Source: a virus | Virus record (IMG/VR): IMGVR_UViG_3300028284_000022 | Coordinates: 1-29,389 of that record | Strand: one strand, 5' to 3' | Length of the DNA: 29,389 nt | Part shown: positions 13,479 through 25,310 of the stretch, piece by piece | Numbering within the stretch: the first letter of the stretch is position 1 | Layout: the number at the start of each line of letters is the position of its first letter | The notes under the pieces: generated by a model | Database searches by the model: none | Told to the model about the DNA's origin: nothing | The model's input: only the letters and a program-made list of their open reading frames with translations | Made by a program: the position numbers and the translations under genes

Positions 13479-15485
13479 TTACTGAGGTCCGTAGACATCT
13501 GCCTTTAATTCTACAAGACTATCCGAAGCCTGTAGAGCATTATTATACCTTGTTTCTACCTTTCTCTGGAATGTTACAACATCACCAGTGATATTAGGCA
13601 TCTCTACAATGATTTGAACATTCATAGACCCATCCGCAGAGAAGTTATCATAGTCCAATACTAACTTATCAAACTGACCGATATAAGATAAAGTAACTGC
13701 AAGATCATACGTACCATCTCCATCCATTTTACCGTCAGGTCCGTACAACTCATAAACCACGGCTCTACCTTTACTTCTAAGATCTAATAGGCCATTGGGT
13801 GTTAGAGTTTCGGCAGAGATCCCTTGGGGTGATCCTTTACCATATAGTTCTTTAGCATAGAAACCTTCAATGATCTTAAGTCTGTGTGAAGCAAATTGTC
13901 CTCTTGCACCCATAACCATTTTAGTTAGATTTACTTGAGCAATGTAGTTCTTACCGATTTGTTTCTTATCAGCTAGACTTAGGCTCTTAAATGCACCACC
14001 ATCTTCTGCACCAACAAACCTTGCAAATCCCACTCTTTCTGCTACTCTAGTTCCTGTCCCAATAACGGTTCTGCTATCCATTATACCATAAGCCGCATCC
14101 GAAAGAGTAAACCTTTGCTTATTCTTAGGTATAGTAAATGTCTTAGTACTCCTATCTGCCGTTGTGTTACCAATAGTTTCAGTACCTCTTAAGGCTCCAC
14201 CTCTTACTCCTCTAATTCTACCATATCCGTTGGGTGGCGATTGTTGAGCAAAGGATGGGTTTAGTGTTCCGTTGCCAACCTGAGCGGCAGTAAATTCTGC
14301 ATCTTGTAAATATGAAGGATCTCTTAACTTTGATCTAACATCAGTTTCTCCAAGTGGACGTAGTCTAAGACTATTCTTTAGGAAGTCATCAATGTCAACC
14401 TTTACCTTCTTAACACCAATTGCAGATTTATTAAGAACATCTGTAACAACACCATTAGGCGCAGTAAAGACTGGTGGTTGTGCTGTGTCATCTGCGGTAA
14501 ACCCTTGCGAAGATCCTACACCTCCACCAGGATCAGGATCCGAATAGTTTTGAGAGTTTGTTACGTCTGCCGTAATAGATCGAACTGCCGTACCCTGTAG
14601 ATCTCCCCAAAACGCAGGTGCTGTGACACCTTCACTAAAGTGTGCACCCTGTCCGTGAATTCTCATCTCAACACCACCAATGGTGCCAGTATCAGACCAA
14701 ATAAACATCTCATCAGCTTGAGTATTAATCTTAGGTGATGATTGGATTATTCTAGCCTCAGATGAAACTTCTAAATTACTACTTGACGCAATGATATGCT
14801 TACCCTCAGTAGCTTGTTTGTTAGTTCCTTTAACAGCCGTGGTTACATTACCAAGGTGTGTGTTTACGGTTGTACCCACCACTGTATTAGATGAGTTACC
14901 TGATACGGTTTTACCTTCGTTACCAAACACTTTAGTTCTAGCATTACCGTTAATGTTCTCTATCTTGTCGTTTCTAGCATTTACTTCATAGCTATCACAA
15001 TTAACTTTAAAGTCACCCTTAACGTTAATGGTTAGGTCTCCCTCATATGTGAGTTGACCGTTTCCTTCTACTATCACCGTTTGATCGCCGTGTGTCACTT
15101 CAACTTTATTATTCGTTGCTAAAACAACTACGGTTCCGTCTGGACGCATTTCAATACCAGCCCCAGAATTGTGCTTTAGAAGAATACGTTCACCACCGGG
15201 TGTGTCGTTGAATTCTATTACATGACCACTAACAGTTTCTTTAACATCAGCATATGGATATTGTGTAGATGCTATAGGTGGTAAATCAATGTCAGCACCT
15301 AAAGGCAATGAATGAGATTTACCAGAACGAAGTGATTCATTGGTATTGGGTTGGTTTTCATAATTTCTTCTAGGATGTTGCTTACTAGGATCCGCAAACG
15401 CATCTGTTACTTTTCCCTGTGTACTAGCATAACCAGTACCAAAGCGTTCTTCTCTGTCCTTTAGATCGTCTCTTTCCGTTGTCAT
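13479..15485 (-). CDS. gp5 C-terminal needle protein, separate beta-helix spike with extra C-terminal domain
   Basis: Of 668 residues, residues 77-115 (YPYADVKETVSGHVIEFNDT, then PGGERILLKHNSG) match the region of T4 gp5 that begins its C-terminal part (YPYVHTMETESGHIQEFDDT). Residues about 120-255 are valine/glycine/threonine-rich short repeats (VxVxGNxxxxVxGD-like), typical of the triple-stranded beta-helix needle. Unlike T4, no lysozyme precedes it in the same chain, and about 400 further residues follow (from about 260), including GRAVVYELYGPDGKMDGDG and a beta-rich end (GQFDKLVLDYD). That part is not recognised. The ATG overlaps the amidase gene stop (ATGA). It presumably assembles under the OB-fold protein at 16947-17819 as the membrane-puncturing spike. 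Confidence 0.85.
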   Translation of the reverse strand: MTTERDDLKDREERFGTGYASTQGKVTDAFADPSKQHPRRNYENQPNTNESLRSGKSHSLPLGADIDLPPIASTQYPYADVKETVSGHVIEFNDTPGGERILLKHNSGAGIEMRPDGTVVVLATNNKVEVTHGDQTVIVEGNGQLTYEGDLTINVKGDFKVNCDSYEVNARNDKIENINGNARTKVFGNEGKTVSGNSSNTVVGTTVNTHLGNVTTAVKGTNKQATEGKHIIASSSNLEVSSEARIIQSSPKINTQADEMFIWSDTGTIGGVEMRIHGQGAHFSEGVTAPAFWGDLQGTAVRSITADVTNSQNYSDPDPGGGVGSSQGFTADDTAQPPVFTAPNGVVTDVLNKSAIGVKKVKVDIDDFLKNSLRLRPLGETDVRSKLRDPSYLQDAEFTAAQVGNGTLNPSFAQQSPPNGYGRIRGVRGGALRGTETIGNTTADRSTKTFTIPKNKQRFTLSDAAYGIMDSRTVIGTGTRVAERVGFARFVGAEDGGAFKSLSLADKKQIGKNYIAQVNLTKMVMGARGQFASHRLKIIEGFYAKELYGKGSPQGISAETLTPNGLLDLRSKGRAVVYELYGPDGKMDGDGTYDLAVTLSYIGQFDKLVLDYDNFSADGSMNVQIIVEMPNITGDVVTFQRKVETRYNNALQASDSLVELKADVYGPQ

Positions 15486-16957
15486 ACTGGTATTCCTGCG
15501 TTAATCTGTGCTGTCGTCAAAGGTCCTGATGCTTTAGCATCTGTTATTAGATTGGTTTTATTAAAGTTTGATTTCACATATTCTCCTACATCAAAACCAG
15601 GATCAACTTTACCAAGATCAGACGTATCGTTATGACCTAGTGCTTGACCAGAAGGCCATACCTCATAGAACGCTCTAACAAACATAGCAAAGCTATTCAT
15701 CTGAGCAGGTGTTAAGCTATCAGCACTTATATACCTATTTGCATTTGCTGTGCCTGATGGACAATTATATCCCCCTGCCATAGAGATACCTATTGAACGC
15801 TTATTGTGACCATATGCTCCTGAGTGTGCACCCTGTCTTTCAAGTGGTCTTCCTCTTTGCAATCTACCATCTCTACGTATCACATAATGATACCCACATC
15901 CACTCCAACCTCTATCCAAATGCCACTGATGTACATCGTCTGCACCAACGTCTTGGTTAGTGTATGTTCCTGTCCAGTGAGCAATAAACTCTGTAATTTC
16001 TCTATTAGTGTTTCTAAACTCTGCTACCAATTCTTCGGGAGAGTCCACATAAGAGAATTGGGTTGAAGTGTTTGTGGTATTAGCCCCAGCCCATGTATTG
16101 TTATTAGAACCAATTTCATATGGAACTGATGTGTTTGTTCCTACTGAAGTATCCTGATCAACTGTTACGTTATTTTGAGGAGTAAGGTTAAGTGAGTTTA
16201 CCCTTTCCTCAATAGTATCATAAGGCAAAGTTGATACATTTGATATCAAACCAATTGCTTCATCATACTTCTCAACTTCAATAAGTGCCGCAATAGTATC
16301 TTTATCTAATTCAGTTCCTAGTATAAGTTCATCAACAACAATGTCAAATGTCTTATCGGTTACTCTAATCAGATTGGTAAGAATGCCACCAACTGCTCCA
16401 CCAAGTAAATTTGAGAAACTTGCATTGAATGCATCTGTTGCCGCTTTAATGCCTGTAGATGTTCCAATTCCAGAACTGATCGTAGCACTTATCTTAGTAA
16501 CTTGTTCTGCACCAGCCGTAGTGGCAACAGAAGATAGGACATTAGTTAATTCATCTGCTGTCTTGCCTGTAACTTTTGTCAAAGCTCTAGACACTGCTTC
16601 TGGAGCACCAGAACTAATAACAAGTTCAAGTTCTCCGTTTTCGATAGTTTCCCCAATAGCTGAATTGATATTACTTGTAGCTGAAGATAGATCTCCTATC
16701 AACTCATTAGCTAATCCAGGAACTTGACCAGTGATCTCTACAATAGAGTCAGTTGCTTTAAGATTCTCCAGAGGATTATCTCCACCTGACAATGGTAGAA
16801 TTCCAGATACTGTCTCACCGACTTTATTTAAAGATGTTTCTAATTGACAAGATGCAACACCCACAACTTGATTTTTAGTCTCAAGTATCTTTCCTAAATT
16901 ACTATTCTTTACTATAGCATCTAGTTGACTGTTTAGAATATTAATATTAATTGCCAT
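15482..16957 (-). CDS. Baseplate hub protein with AmpD-type N-acetylmuramoyl-L-alanine amidase domain
   Basis: Residues 320-465 of this 491-residue protein form an Amidase_2/PGRP domain: zinc ligand candidates H327 (FIAHWTGT), H442 (GHND) and D452 (KVDPGFD); catalytic candidates Y357 (GYHYVI) and K450. The H442-K450-D452 spacing equals that of AmpD (H154, K162, D164), as I recall it. It would cut the amide between N-acetylmuramic acid and L-Ala. The N-terminal 300 residues are Ser/Thr/Ala/Ile-rich with helical stretches and no recognised domain; they may dock it on the spike. It is translationally coupled on both sides (11-base overlap with the OB-lysozyme gene, 4-base overlap with the needle gene), which places it in the puncturing device rather than in a free lysis cassette. 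No holin-like gene is adjacent. Confidence 0.85.
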   Translation of the reverse strand: MAININILNSQLDAIVKNSNLGKILETKNQVVGVASCQLETSLNKVGETVSGILPLSGGDNPLENLKATDSIVEITGQVPGLANELIGDLSSATSNINSAIGETIENGELELVISSGAPEAVSRALTKVTGKTADELTNVLSSVATTAGAEQVTKISATISSGIGTSTGIKAATDAFNASFSNLLGGAVGGILTNLIRVTDKTFDIVVDELILGTELDKDTIAALIEVEKYDEAIGLISNVSTLPYDTIEERVNSLNLTPQNNVTVDQDTSVGTNTSVPYEIGSNNNTWAGANTTNTSTQFSYVDSPEELVAEFRNTNREITEFIAHWTGTYTNQDVGADDVHQWHLDRGWSGCGYHYVIRRDGRLQRGRPLERQGAHSGAYGHNKRSIGISMAGGYNCPSGTANANRYISADSLTPAQMNSFAMFVRAFYEVWPSGQALGHNDTSDLGKVDPGFDVGEYVKSNFNKTNLITDAKASGPLTTAQINAGIPV

Positions 16958-17819
16958 TATTATATGTCTCCAAAACTTGTCTAGCGTGTTCTACTCTTTG
17001 ATCTTTGTGAGCAAATGCCGCATTTGGCCTTTCATACTTATCGCAGAAGAACTCTGTAGCCTGTTTAAGATTTGTCATCTGCTTGAACTGATTGTATCCC
17101 CAAAACCTAGGAGATATTGTAGAGAAGTCATATAGTAGAAATCCCAACTGAGTTTCCAATGCACCTATGTCTAAACCACGATCTAATGCATAAGCCTCTA
17201 ACTGTTGAAGTCTGTTTGCATCTGGGTTCCATTGAGCAATACCAAATGAACTTTCCCCAGTAAATCCAGACGTTACACCAGGATCCATATTTGATTCTTG
17301 AATAAGATTACCAACAATAGCCGCAGACTGAATAGGAGTAAAGCCATTTCCGATAAAGAAGTTAAATGCTTTTTCAGAATTACTTGATCCTACAACAGTA
17401 TTGGTATTTACCGTGTTTCTTGGAATTCCACCCGATGGATGTGGAACAGATCTGACAACTGGATCAGGCTCTCTAGATCTAGTTTCATCTAACTGTGCCT
17501 GTTCTATTCTAGGCATAGATCCCATTACTAAAGGTATCTGAGATTGTTGACCATCCATGAACATCCCAAAGACTTGTGCACCAACTTTAATTCCAACAGA
17601 TCTACCTAAACCAGAAACACCTTCTTCAGTGGTAGGAACTAAAACCTGTGCCCATGGGAGCGTATGTTCTGGAACCTCATTTACATCTTCATTATGCACA
17701 CCAAAAATGCGTACCCTAACCCTACCAACTTTAAGAGGATCTTGGATATCAATAACTATACCGATAAACCATCTATGAACATCGCCGTAGAAGTTTGATT
17801 GAATTGGAGTAAAAGTCAT
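16947..17819 (-). CDS. 5: gp5-type hub protein: OB-fold plus tail lysozyme
   Basis: Residues 14-105 of this 290-residue protein match the T4 gp5 N-terminal OB domain: HRWFIGIVIDIQDPLKVGRV (T4 WFVGVVEDRMDPLKLGRV), TLPWAQVL and GRSVGIKVGAQVFGMFMDG. Residues 147-286 are a lysozyme or transglycosylase-type domain with AAIVGNLIQESNMDP (E175 likely catalytic) and SFGIAQW (191-197), like the phage tail lysozyme 2 family; the T4-type GH24 signature of T4 gp5 is absent. The OB part would trimerise beneath gp27, and the enzyme would open peptidoglycan during injection. The ATG overlaps the gp27 stop (ATGA). The protein ends where T4 gp5 would be self-cleaved, so here the cut is made at gene level. Confidence 0.88.
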   Translation of the reverse strand: MTFTPIQSNFYGDVHRWFIGIVIDIQDPLKVGRVRVRIFGVHNEDVNEVPEHTLPWAQVLVPTTEEGVSGLGRSVGIKVGAQVFGMFMDGQQSQIPLVMGSMPRIEQAQLDETRSREPDPVVRSVPHPSGGIPRNTVNTNTVVGSSNSEKAFNFFIGNGFTPIQSAAIVGNLIQESNMDPGVTSGFTGESSFGIAQWNPDANRLQQLEAYALDRGLDIGALETQLGFLLYDFSTISPRFWGYNQFKQMTNLKQATEFFCDKYERPNAAFAHKDQRVEHARQVLETYNNGN

Positions 17820-22580: not shown

Positions 22581-23291
22581 ATGGCTTTACCTAAACTAAA
22601 CGACCAACCCAAATACGAATTGACTATTCCATCTAGTGGTACCGTCATCAGGATTAGACCATTCTTAGTGAAAGAAGAAAAGATTCTTCTACTTGCTATG
22701 GAAAGTCAAGATCAGTCACAGATCCTGTCAGCTATAGTTGACACTCTAGAAGCATGTGTACTAGGAGAACTTGATACTAACGTACTTACCACGTTTGACA
22801 TTGAGTACCTGTTCACTAAACTAAGATCTAAGTCAGTTGGTGAGACTGCTAAGATTGAACTGGAGTGTACACACTGTAAGGAAAGAAACCCTGTGGTTAT
22901 TCCAATGGATGATGTAGGCGTTAAGGGTGATATGGAATCTAAAAACAAAACTGTCGATATTGGCAGTGGAGTATCACTTGAACTACAATGGCCTCGTTAT
23001 AATAGTATCGCAAAAGATGCTACAGTAATTGAGGGTGGTGCAGAAGCAACATTCTCTATGATTAAACATTGTATTTCTTATGTGTGCACTGATGAGGATA
23101 GAATTAAGTTCTCTGAAGAAAGCGCAAAAGAAAAGGATGAATTCGTTATGTCTATGACTGCTGATAACTTTTCATCCATCAAAGACTTTATCGAAGGTAT
23201 GCCTACACTGAAGCATAACATCGATTTTGAATGTTTGTCATGTGGAAAACCTAACGAGTATACTTTGGAAGGTATGCAAGATTTTTTCTAG
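22581..23291 (+). CDS. 26: Baseplate hub assembly protein gp26, zero-frame product
   Basis: The start is set at ATG 22581 (236 residues, MALPKLNDQPKYELTIPSSG) because GGAG lies 5 bases upstream; the earlier ATG at 22551 sits inside the previous gene and has no such site. The protein fits the T4 gp26/baseplate hub family: TVIRIRPFLVKEEKILLLAM near the N-terminus, then two CxxC pairs (C96-x-x-C99 and C218-x-x-C221) that probably bind one zinc ion. T4 gp26 is 208 residues and acts in hub assembly. The gene ends GATTTTTTCTAG, where the last codons form a slippery heptamer immediately before the stop; see the frameshift entry. It is followed by the tape measure gene, the position of tail assembly chaperones in many phages. 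Confidence 0.8.
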   Translation: MALPKLNDQPKYELTIPSSGTVIRIRPFLVKEEKILLLAMESQDQSQILSAIVDTLEACVLGELDTNVLTTFDIEYLFTKLRSKSVGETAKIELECTHCKERNPVVIPMDDVGVKGDMESKNKTVDIGSGVSLELQWPRYNSIAKDATVIEGGAEATFSMIKHCISYVCTDEDRIKFSEESAKEKDEFVMSMTADNFSSIKDFIEGMPTLKHNIDFECLSCGKPNEYTLEGMQDFF

Positions 23292-23380
23292 TATGTCTAT
23301 CTCATAATAGTATAATCAATTACTATAAAAACAACTTTGCACTGATGCAACATCATAATTATAGTTTGAATGAGATAGAC
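23282..23380 (+). promoter_or_regulatory. Predicted -1 programmed ribosomal frameshift signal
   Basis: The zero frame reads GA[T TTT TTC] TAG: the heptamer T_TTT_TTC (23282-23288) fits X_XXY_YYZ and directly precedes the gp26 stop. After a 6-base spacer (TAGTAT) comes GTCTATCTCAT (23295-23305), which pairs perfectly with ATGAGATAGAC (23370-23380) to give an 11-bp stem, or 12 with a U-G pair. The 64-base loop contains smaller hairpins (ATAGTA with TACTAT; TTGCA-CTGA-TGCAA). The minus-one frame then stays open for 62 codons. Slip site, spacer and stem are seen directly; frameshifting itself is inferred. Confidence 0.75.
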
Positions 23381-23476
23381 GGATTGATACCATGGGAAAA
23401 GGAAGTGTATATTACTATGCTTGCTGAACACATAAAAGAACAAGAAGAAGAACGAAAGAGACAAAGAAATGGCTGA
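23288..23476 (+). CDS. Frameshift extension of gp26 (gp26-fusion C-terminal domain, gp51-like position)
   Basis: In the -1 frame, 62 codons run from 23288 to the TGA at 23474-23476, beginning LVCLSHNSIINYY and containing YSLNEIDGLIPWEKEVYITM (residues about 25-44 of the extension), then LAEHIKEQEEERKRQRNG. The PWE-x-x-(V/I)Y segment followed by a charged helix is like the short downstream partners of tail assembly chaperones. Fusion gives about 298 residues from the ATG at 22581. Independent initiation at ATG 23345 is possible (43 residues) but no ribosome binding site precedes it. The last codons overlap the tape measure start (23469). It is the only coding explanation for the 177 bases between gp26 and the tape measure gene. 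Confidence 0.75.
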   Translation, partial: LVCLSHNSIINYYKNNFALMQHHNYSLNEIDGLIPWEKEVYITMLAEHIKEQEEERKRQRNG

Positions 23477-25310
23477 TACCACTCTCAATGATGTAGTTAA
23501 AACCCTACAGAAAGGTCAGGCACGTGATGAGCGAATGGCTAAGAACTTTGAAGCATGGTTCAAAGCCCAAGAACGTGCACGTCTTGATGCTCTAGAAGAG
23601 AGAAGAGAACGTAAGAAGGCTAAACCTGAGTCTGTAGAACGTGCAAGAAGAAAAGATACTGGTAAAGATAATACTGGTATGGGTTTCTTAGCACTAGGTA
23701 AGCTTGTAGGACCTTTAGGCGCATTCATCGCTGGCTTCACTGCATTAGGTGCGGCATTGGTTGGGTTCCGTGGGTGGGAACTAAAAGCAATTAAATCATT
23801 GGATAAGTTTGGTGGGTTTAGTAAGGCATTAAATCAGAAGTTTATTGACCTAAGAGCCAAGTTCTTTAGGAAGCTAGGTCTAGATCCTAAGTTGGGAAAA
23901 GCTGTAGGTGGTAAAAGATCTCTTGCGACACCATTAACAACTCAGTTGAATAATAGAATAAGCACATGGTTCTCTAACCTACAACAAAAGTATTTTAAGA
24001 TCTTTGGTCTTGGTGTTGATGGTAAACCTGTATCCGTACAGGGAGATGATGGAAAGATCAAACCTAAAAGTATTATGGCTAGACTTGGTGTTAGAATAAA
24101 CAGCATATTTAGACCTATAACCAAAATGTCTGCCGCTATTGGTGCTTGGTTTAGTGGCGCAGGGGCTAAGGTTGTAAACTTTGGTAAGTCTTTCCTAGGT
24201 AAAGGTGGGGCATTTGTCAAACTCATGGGTAAGATCCTATGGCCTCTTGGTATTCTAATATCTGCATTTGATGGTATGAAAGCATACATGGCATCTGATG
24301 AAGCAACTATATTTGGTAAGTTTGGTGATGGTATCGCTGGAATGGTTGGATCATTCATTGGTGCACCATTCGACTTAATCAAAAGTGCATTCCTTTGGAT
24401 CATAAGAAAGATCACTGGTGCTGAAGTTGATGCAGATGGTAACTACGACACATCAACAACAAGTGGAAAGATCCTACAGGTTGCTAAGGACTTCTCGTTT
24501 ACAGAGATGATAAAGAAAATGGTCAAAGCACCATTCACTGCAATTCTAAATGTCGTGGATTGGGTAAAGTCTAAGTTTGCTATCTTCAGTTCTGAAGGTG
24601 AGGGTGGTGGATTTAAAGGTATGATGAAATCTATTATGGATGATGCACTAGCACTCTTTGGCTTTGAGAAGGGCATGAGTGTATTAGAGATCATTGGAGC
24701 TATCGTTGTGGCACCTGCGACAGCGGGCATCAAGTGGCTTAGTGGTATATTTGGATTTGAAATACCAGAGAACTTCACACTAAACCCTGTTACCCTAATA
24801 ACAAAATATGGCAACGATGCTTTCAAGTGGATCGCAGGCAAGTTTGGCTTTGAGATCACTGATGATGATTTCAGTATCACTGGTTGGATTAAGAACAAAT
24901 GGGATGAAGCTGTTACTAAGATGCAAATGGCATTCTTAGATCTAGGGCTATGGATGTCTATGATCGGACCTAAACTAAAGGTTATGGCAGTAGAAGCAAT
25001 TAAATCTTATACTGGTAACTGGATCATTGATGATGCTACTCTAGGTGAGTTGCAAGCAGACGTTGACAGAAGAGAAACTCAAGCTCAAGTGCTTAGGGAT
25101 CAGTTAGCGATTCAGAGAGCAAATAACAATGCAGAAGATATCACACCAACAGAACCATTCCCTGCTCCGCCAGTCGTTCTTATGGATGGATCTCAAGGAG
25201 ATACTAATAACTCACAAACAACCATCAATCAAATGAAAATACCAATGAATTCTGGAAGTGATGCCTTCCTAGAAGAAACAGTAAGACGACCTATGCAGTT
25301 TGGGGGATAA
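23469..25310 (+). CDS. 29: Tail tape measure protein, gp29-like
   Basis: This is a 613-residue protein, close to T4 gp29 (590). At about 0.15 nm per residue this gives a tail near 90 nm. The N-terminus is a charged helix (residues 1-68, rich in Arg/Lys/Glu), followed by several hydrophobic segments suited to membrane passage: about 71-100 (FLALGKLVGPLGAFIAGF), 255-268, 285-312 and 403-420. Residues 421-432 (IKWLSGIFGFEI) and 452-463 (FKWIAGKFGFEI) are an internal repeat. The C-terminal 60 residues are polar and Asn/Gln-rich. It overlaps the gp26 frameshift extension. It would fill the tube lumen and leave ahead of the DNA. No enzymatic domain is seen. Confidence 0.8.
   Translation: MADTTLNDVVKTLQKGQARDERMAKNFEAWFKAQERARLDALEERRERKKAKPESVERARRKDTGKDNTGMGFLALGKLVGPLGAFIAGFTALGAALVGFRGWELKAIKSLDKFGGFSKALNQKFIDLRAKFFRKLGLDPKLGKAVGGKRSLATPLTTQLNNRISTWFSNLQQKYFKIFGLGVDGKPVSVQGDDGKIKPKSIMARLGVRINSIFRPITKMSAAIGAWFSGAGAKVVNFGKSFLGKGGAFVKLMGKILWPLGILISAFDGMKAYMASDEATIFGKFGDGIAGMVGSFIGAPFDLIKSAFLWIIRKITGAEVDADGNYDTSTTSGKILQVAKDFSFTEMIKKMVKAPFTAILNVVDWVKSKFAIFSSEGEGGGFKGMMKSIMDDALALFGFEKGMSVLEIIGAIVVAPATAGIKWLSGIFGFEIPENFTLNPVTLITKYGNDAFKWIAGKFGFEITDDDFSITGWIKNKWDEAVTKMQMAFLDLGLWMSMIGPKLKVMAVEAIKSYTGNWIIDDATLGELQADVDRRETQAQVLRDQLAIQRANNNAEDITPTEPFPAPPVVLMDGSQGDTNNSQTTINQMKIPMNSGSDAFLEETVRRPMQFGG

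Follow-up and report, generated by a model that had tools for sequence, protein, structure and literature searches.

A predicted -1 ribosomal frameshift at the end of gene 26 of an uncultivated marine T4-like myovirus, with a candidate stimulatory stem in its lineage

Introduction

In phage lambda, one gene yields the tail chaperone in two forms, G and GT, through a -1 slip immediately upstream of the tape measure gene. The locus described here is like it in that two chaperone forms are predicted from one gene by -1 slippage. Lambda slips on G GGA AAG and the present locus would slip on T TTT TTC with a downstream stem; the likeness meant here is one of arrangement. In T4, TAC-N (gp26) and TAC-NC (gp51) are two separate genes, with gene 51 on the opposite strand from gene 26 and with no TTTTTT at the domain junction of gene 51, whereas here both would be products of one frameshifted locus.

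Tail assembly chaperones of T4-like phages were identified by Vladimirov, Gautam and Davidson (Virology 2022, PMID 34826709). Two later articles cite that work, one in connection with poly-T slip signals that T4-like phages have in their TAC-N genes (PMC12846349) and the other for T4-like phages with separate short and long genes instead of frameshifting (PMC10885494). The TAC of the Vandenendeviridae phage Adele has a conserved GTTTTT slip at the end of TAC-N and, upstream of the tape measure gene, a -1 frame that is open; the present locus is similar, with a presumed tape measure gene, but Adele is from a different phage family and no long-range stem is reported for it in the available part of the article (PMC12846349).

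The DNA analysed, designated below as the window, is the whole stretch of 29,389 nt at positions 1 to 29,389 of IMG/VR record IMGVR_UViG_3300028284_000022. It is a further T4-like member, from an uncultivated virus, with a long-range stem of which no description was found. A preliminary description of the window had proposed a frameshift at the end of gene 26.

Results

The observations concern the anatomy of the locus, its conservation, the coding evolution of the -1 frame, and the homology to T4 gp26 and gp51. Features of the locus are listed in Table 1. Slippery heptamers occur 82 times in the window (both strands), and only one of the 82, TTTTTTC at 23282-23288, combines the correct frame with a long ORF that stops nearby and a long -1 frame after it. 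The coding part of this frame (23288-23473) gives 62 residues and is closed by TGA at 23474-23476. No in-frame start was found near the junction of gp26 and the extension in the window, and the first in-frame ATG of the extension, at about codon 20, has no Shine-Dalgarno sequence. The preliminary description was accurate on the anatomy: the heptamer in the correct frame directly before the gp26 TAG, the 6-base spacer, the perfect 11-bp stem with a 64-base loop, the 62-codon open -1 frame, and the extension without its own ribosome binding site were all found again.

Table 1. Features of the gene 26 locus, in coordinates of the window
Feature	Coordinates	Strand	Evidence or remark
Gene 26 (predicted TAC-N, 236 aa, 0 frame)	22581..23291	+	Stop TAG 23289-23291; end is ...GAT TTT TTC TAG
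Shine-Dalgarno-like GGAAGG, possible stimulator	23267..23272	+	9 nt upstream of slip; family-wide enrichment
Slippery heptamer T_TTT_TTC	23282..23288	+	In phase, adjoins gp26 stop; TTTTTTN in phase in 336/336 relatives
-1 frame extension (62-aa gp51-like predicted TAC-C domain and stop TGA)	23288..23476	+	phrog_634, phage homologues
Spacer, 6 nt, includes gp26 stop codon	23289..23294	+	Read from sequence
5' arm of 11-bp stem, GTCTATCTCAT	23295..23305	+	RNA fold; near-frozen codons in 31 relatives
3' arm of 11-bp stem, ATGAGATAGAC	23370..23380	+	RNA fold; near-frozen codons in 31 relatives
Next ORF, 613 aa, product presumed to be the tape measure protein	23469..25310	+	Position; 8-nt overlap with extension end

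The gp26 of the window matches Pfam T4_baseplate (1.6e-60) and phrog_150 (1.8e-59). For the 62-residue extension the match (1.2e-26) is to gp51, as phrog_634, "baseplate hub assembly catalyst". Homologues of the extension were found in 564 phage records, mostly of cyanophages, with alignments that usually begin at extension residue 2, which corresponds to the end of gp26. A profile of the predicted fusion covers almost all of T4 gp51, and T4 gp26 aligns to the N-terminal part of this profile only, without the C-terminal part; T4 thus carries the fusion as a gene of its own. The extension profile alone aligns to T4 gp51 residues 204-244. By these alignments, the predicted TAC-N is homologous to T4 gp26 and the predicted TAC-C to the C-terminus of T4 gp51, and T4 gp51 is recognized as a single chain joining both domains, with the same architecture as the predicted fusion. 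An AlphaFold model of gp26 has a mean pLDDT of 92. In fold searches its strong matches were predicted gp26-type proteins of other phages only; nothing significant was found in PDB, where the HK97 tail assembly chaperone 2OB9 had E = 0.8 and a TM of 0.39 of the target, and a PDB sequence search with the gp26 profile gave no match.

The preliminary description placed the tape measure gene after the extension. An ORF does adjoin there, with the overlap given in Table 1, but no sequence match of its 613-aa product was found to T4 gp29 or to any annotated tape measure protein, and tblastn (E <= 1) gave no match among 50,697 annotated phage records. The relatives of this ORF are mainly within the lineage of the window; one is close (75%), and identity is otherwise about 23-35% within that lineage. 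The ORF at 23469-25310 is presumed to be the tape measure gene by its position only.

Relatives were collected from IMG/VR and from annotated phages by the downstream peptide alone. The 336 loci include some contigs fetched twice, and 160 were left after removal of junctions more than 94% identical. When the junctions were aligned, as had been suggested in the preliminary description, TTTTTT was in phase at the end of gp26 in all 336 relatives (160 non-redundant). The heptamer is TTTTTTC in 93 of the 160, TTTTTTT in 43, TTTTTTA in 22, and TTTTTTG in two; a last base A changes the second residue from Phe to Leu, with the slip still intact. The base before TTT TTN is T in 160 of 160, and the residue encoded there varies (Asp, Ser, Asn, Ala, His, Thr). 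For 50 non-redundant relatives, which are kin and not independent, the summed log10 chance given their own synonymous codon usage is -12.3 for T before the slip codons and -7.9 for TTT as the first slip codon. The slip site is kept in Kyanoviridae (cyanophages), Vibrio phage KVP40, Sinorhizobium phage phiN3, and Rhizobium phages. Between the slip and the first conserved Met, 287, 168, and 825 substitutions were counted at codon positions 1, 2, and 3 of the -1 frame, and this third-position excess indicates that the -1 frame behaves as a translated frame.

In the window, GTCTATCTCAT is the exact reverse complement of ATGAGATAGAC. RNA folding of 23282-23400, a check named in the preliminary description, gave -27.1 kcal/mol (z = -3.4 against dinucleotide shuffles), and the 105 nt that follow the slip fold at -23.9, where synonymous-codon shuffles average -13.7 and none of 200 is as low. 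At least 9 of the 11 stem pairs form in 31 of the 160 non-redundant relatives; the remaining 129 have 1-8 pairs, centred on 5-6. In the gp26 tree the stem-bearers are inside one group of 50 (support 96), and three changes are needed. A search of the junction in Rfam found nothing above threshold. In several other lineages a short local hairpin stands as far from the slip site as the long stem does in the window, and covariation in two of these lineages was weak and moderate, respectively. Most relatives have neither the long stem nor a local hairpin, so the long stem seems to be a lineage-specific accessory, although the share without any stimulator is poorly measured, as most non-stem relatives scored "none" in the helix search and their p of 1 is uninformative. 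As part of the frameshift signal, the stem of the preliminary description thus holds for the lineage of the window, and not in general, as most relatives keep the slip without it.

The frameshift could be real and the 11-bp stem a by-product of conserved codons with no stimulation. Such a reading would fit with the lack of this stem in most relatives and with a core varying too little for covariation. As regards the compensatory changes that the preliminary description had proposed as a check of the stem, covariation in 24 relatives was at best marginally above shuffles, since the core hardly varies, with 7 of 12 pairs showing no variation at all. Support for the long stem therefore rests on synonymous constraint. 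In the 31 stem-bearers the synonymous difference is 0.09 in arm codons versus 0.41 at other codons, with 260 of 593,775 column sets as low as the arm columns, whereas in the 129 non-stem relatives the same columns vary freely (0.51 versus 0.52 elsewhere). This pattern, together with the bimodal pairing counts and with the local hairpins at the same spot, which in one lineage have modest two-sided changes, makes the by-product reading rather unlikely. We are inclined to think that one uncultivated marine T4-like lineage fixed the 11-bp stem with its loop of about 64 nt, all of it within the sequence that codes for TAC-C, to stimulate frameshifting of gp26. Sister lineages would have either a short local hairpin equally far from the slip or no stem.

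Upstream of the slip, a Shine-Dalgarno-like element at about 10 nt is enriched in 124 relatives, with a mean of -6.25 versus a synonymous expectation of -4.93 kcal/mol (Wilcoxon p = 2e-11, relatedness ignored). Purine runs of this kind at that place in the window and relatives are GGAAGG, GGAGG, and GAGGG.

A gp51-like peptide made as a separate protein, by termination-reinitiation or from an internal start, would agree with the many phage records that annotate a CDS of its own for gp51, and with KVP40 and Rhizobium phages, where an ATG overlaps or adjoins the gp26 stop. An ATG is, however, absent within 6 codons of the slip in the window and in 130 of 160 relatives, and 114 of the 160 have their first ATG only at codon 20-21, within the conserved domain. 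Homology to gp51 covers the extension as far as the slip site, and so do conserved residues under purifying selection. The -1 frame is, judged by the alignments, conserved, open, and overlapping with the upstream ORF, without a conserved start of its own. Considering also that TTTTTT is kept even where the encoded amino acids change, and that both domains are joined in one chain in T4 gp51, the separate protein is very improbable, with the reservation that reinitiation could contribute in those 30 of 160 relatives where an ATG does occur within the first 6 codons after the slip. Transcriptional slippage inserting one base on T6 and so giving the fusion, to which the universal six-T homopolymer might point, is hardly credible, as six T are short for polymerase slippage, the run never departs from the single phase in which tandem P/A-site slippage can occur, and downstream stems and Shine-Dalgarno-like elements are signals for ribosomes and not for polymerases.

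Discussion

Gene 26 of this marine T4-like myovirus very probably ends in a programmed -1 ribosomal frameshift, which would give gp26 and the fusion as the short and long tail chaperone. Most ribosomes would stop at TAG and release gp26 (TAC-N, 236 aa). A minority would slip back by one base in tandem on T_TTT_TTC, reading CTA GTA TGT and so on, and would add 62 residues to give a 298-aa fusion (TAC-NC). In analogy with lambda G/GT, both forms would act in tail assembly as chaperones of the tape measure protein, for which the next ORF is the probable gene. In the lineage of the window, the 11-bp stem 6 nt downstream would stimulate the slip, and perhaps the Shine-Dalgarno-like element upstream would do so too. 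What we infer is the slipping itself, with its efficiency, and the parts played by the stem and by the two forms as chaperones. The view of the preliminary description that gp26 corresponds to a G-type chaperone and the gp51-like tail to a T-type domain joined by frameshifting fits all of the comparative tests.

The abstract of Vladimirov, Gautam and Davidson reportedly describes several groups of T4-like phages as frameshifting and the T4 group as having genes 26 and 51 apart, in agreement with the present results. The preliminary description knew of no account of frameshifting for T4-like gp26; one was published in 2022 (PMID 34826709). As the arrangement was described for T4-like phages at that time, the present finding is correct and mostly known. 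The long-range stem in the lineage of the window is the sole part for which no description was found in the literature, and it is possibly novel.

The frameshifted tail chaperone is probably widespread in T4-like phages beyond the group of T4 itself, and public records would have it wrongly divided, as "baseplate hub gp26" on the one hand and "hub assembly catalyst gp51" on the other. If the stimulatory role of the stem is true, a family that combines an invariant slip site with interchangeable stimulators would offer a natural series in which to study the setting of frameshift ratios, and the swapped downstream RNA elements could serve as a test of what fixes the ratio of chaperone forms.

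In public records such as NC_008296, MT647606, and NC_015287, the -1 extension is a separate truncated "gp51" with varying starts, or it is unannotated. Elsewhere in the window, two adjacent overlapping baseplate genes with different peptidoglycan hydrolases are located on the minus strand at 15482-16957 and 16947-17819; the hydrolases are an Amidase_2 domain and a gp5-type OB domain with phage tail lysozyme.
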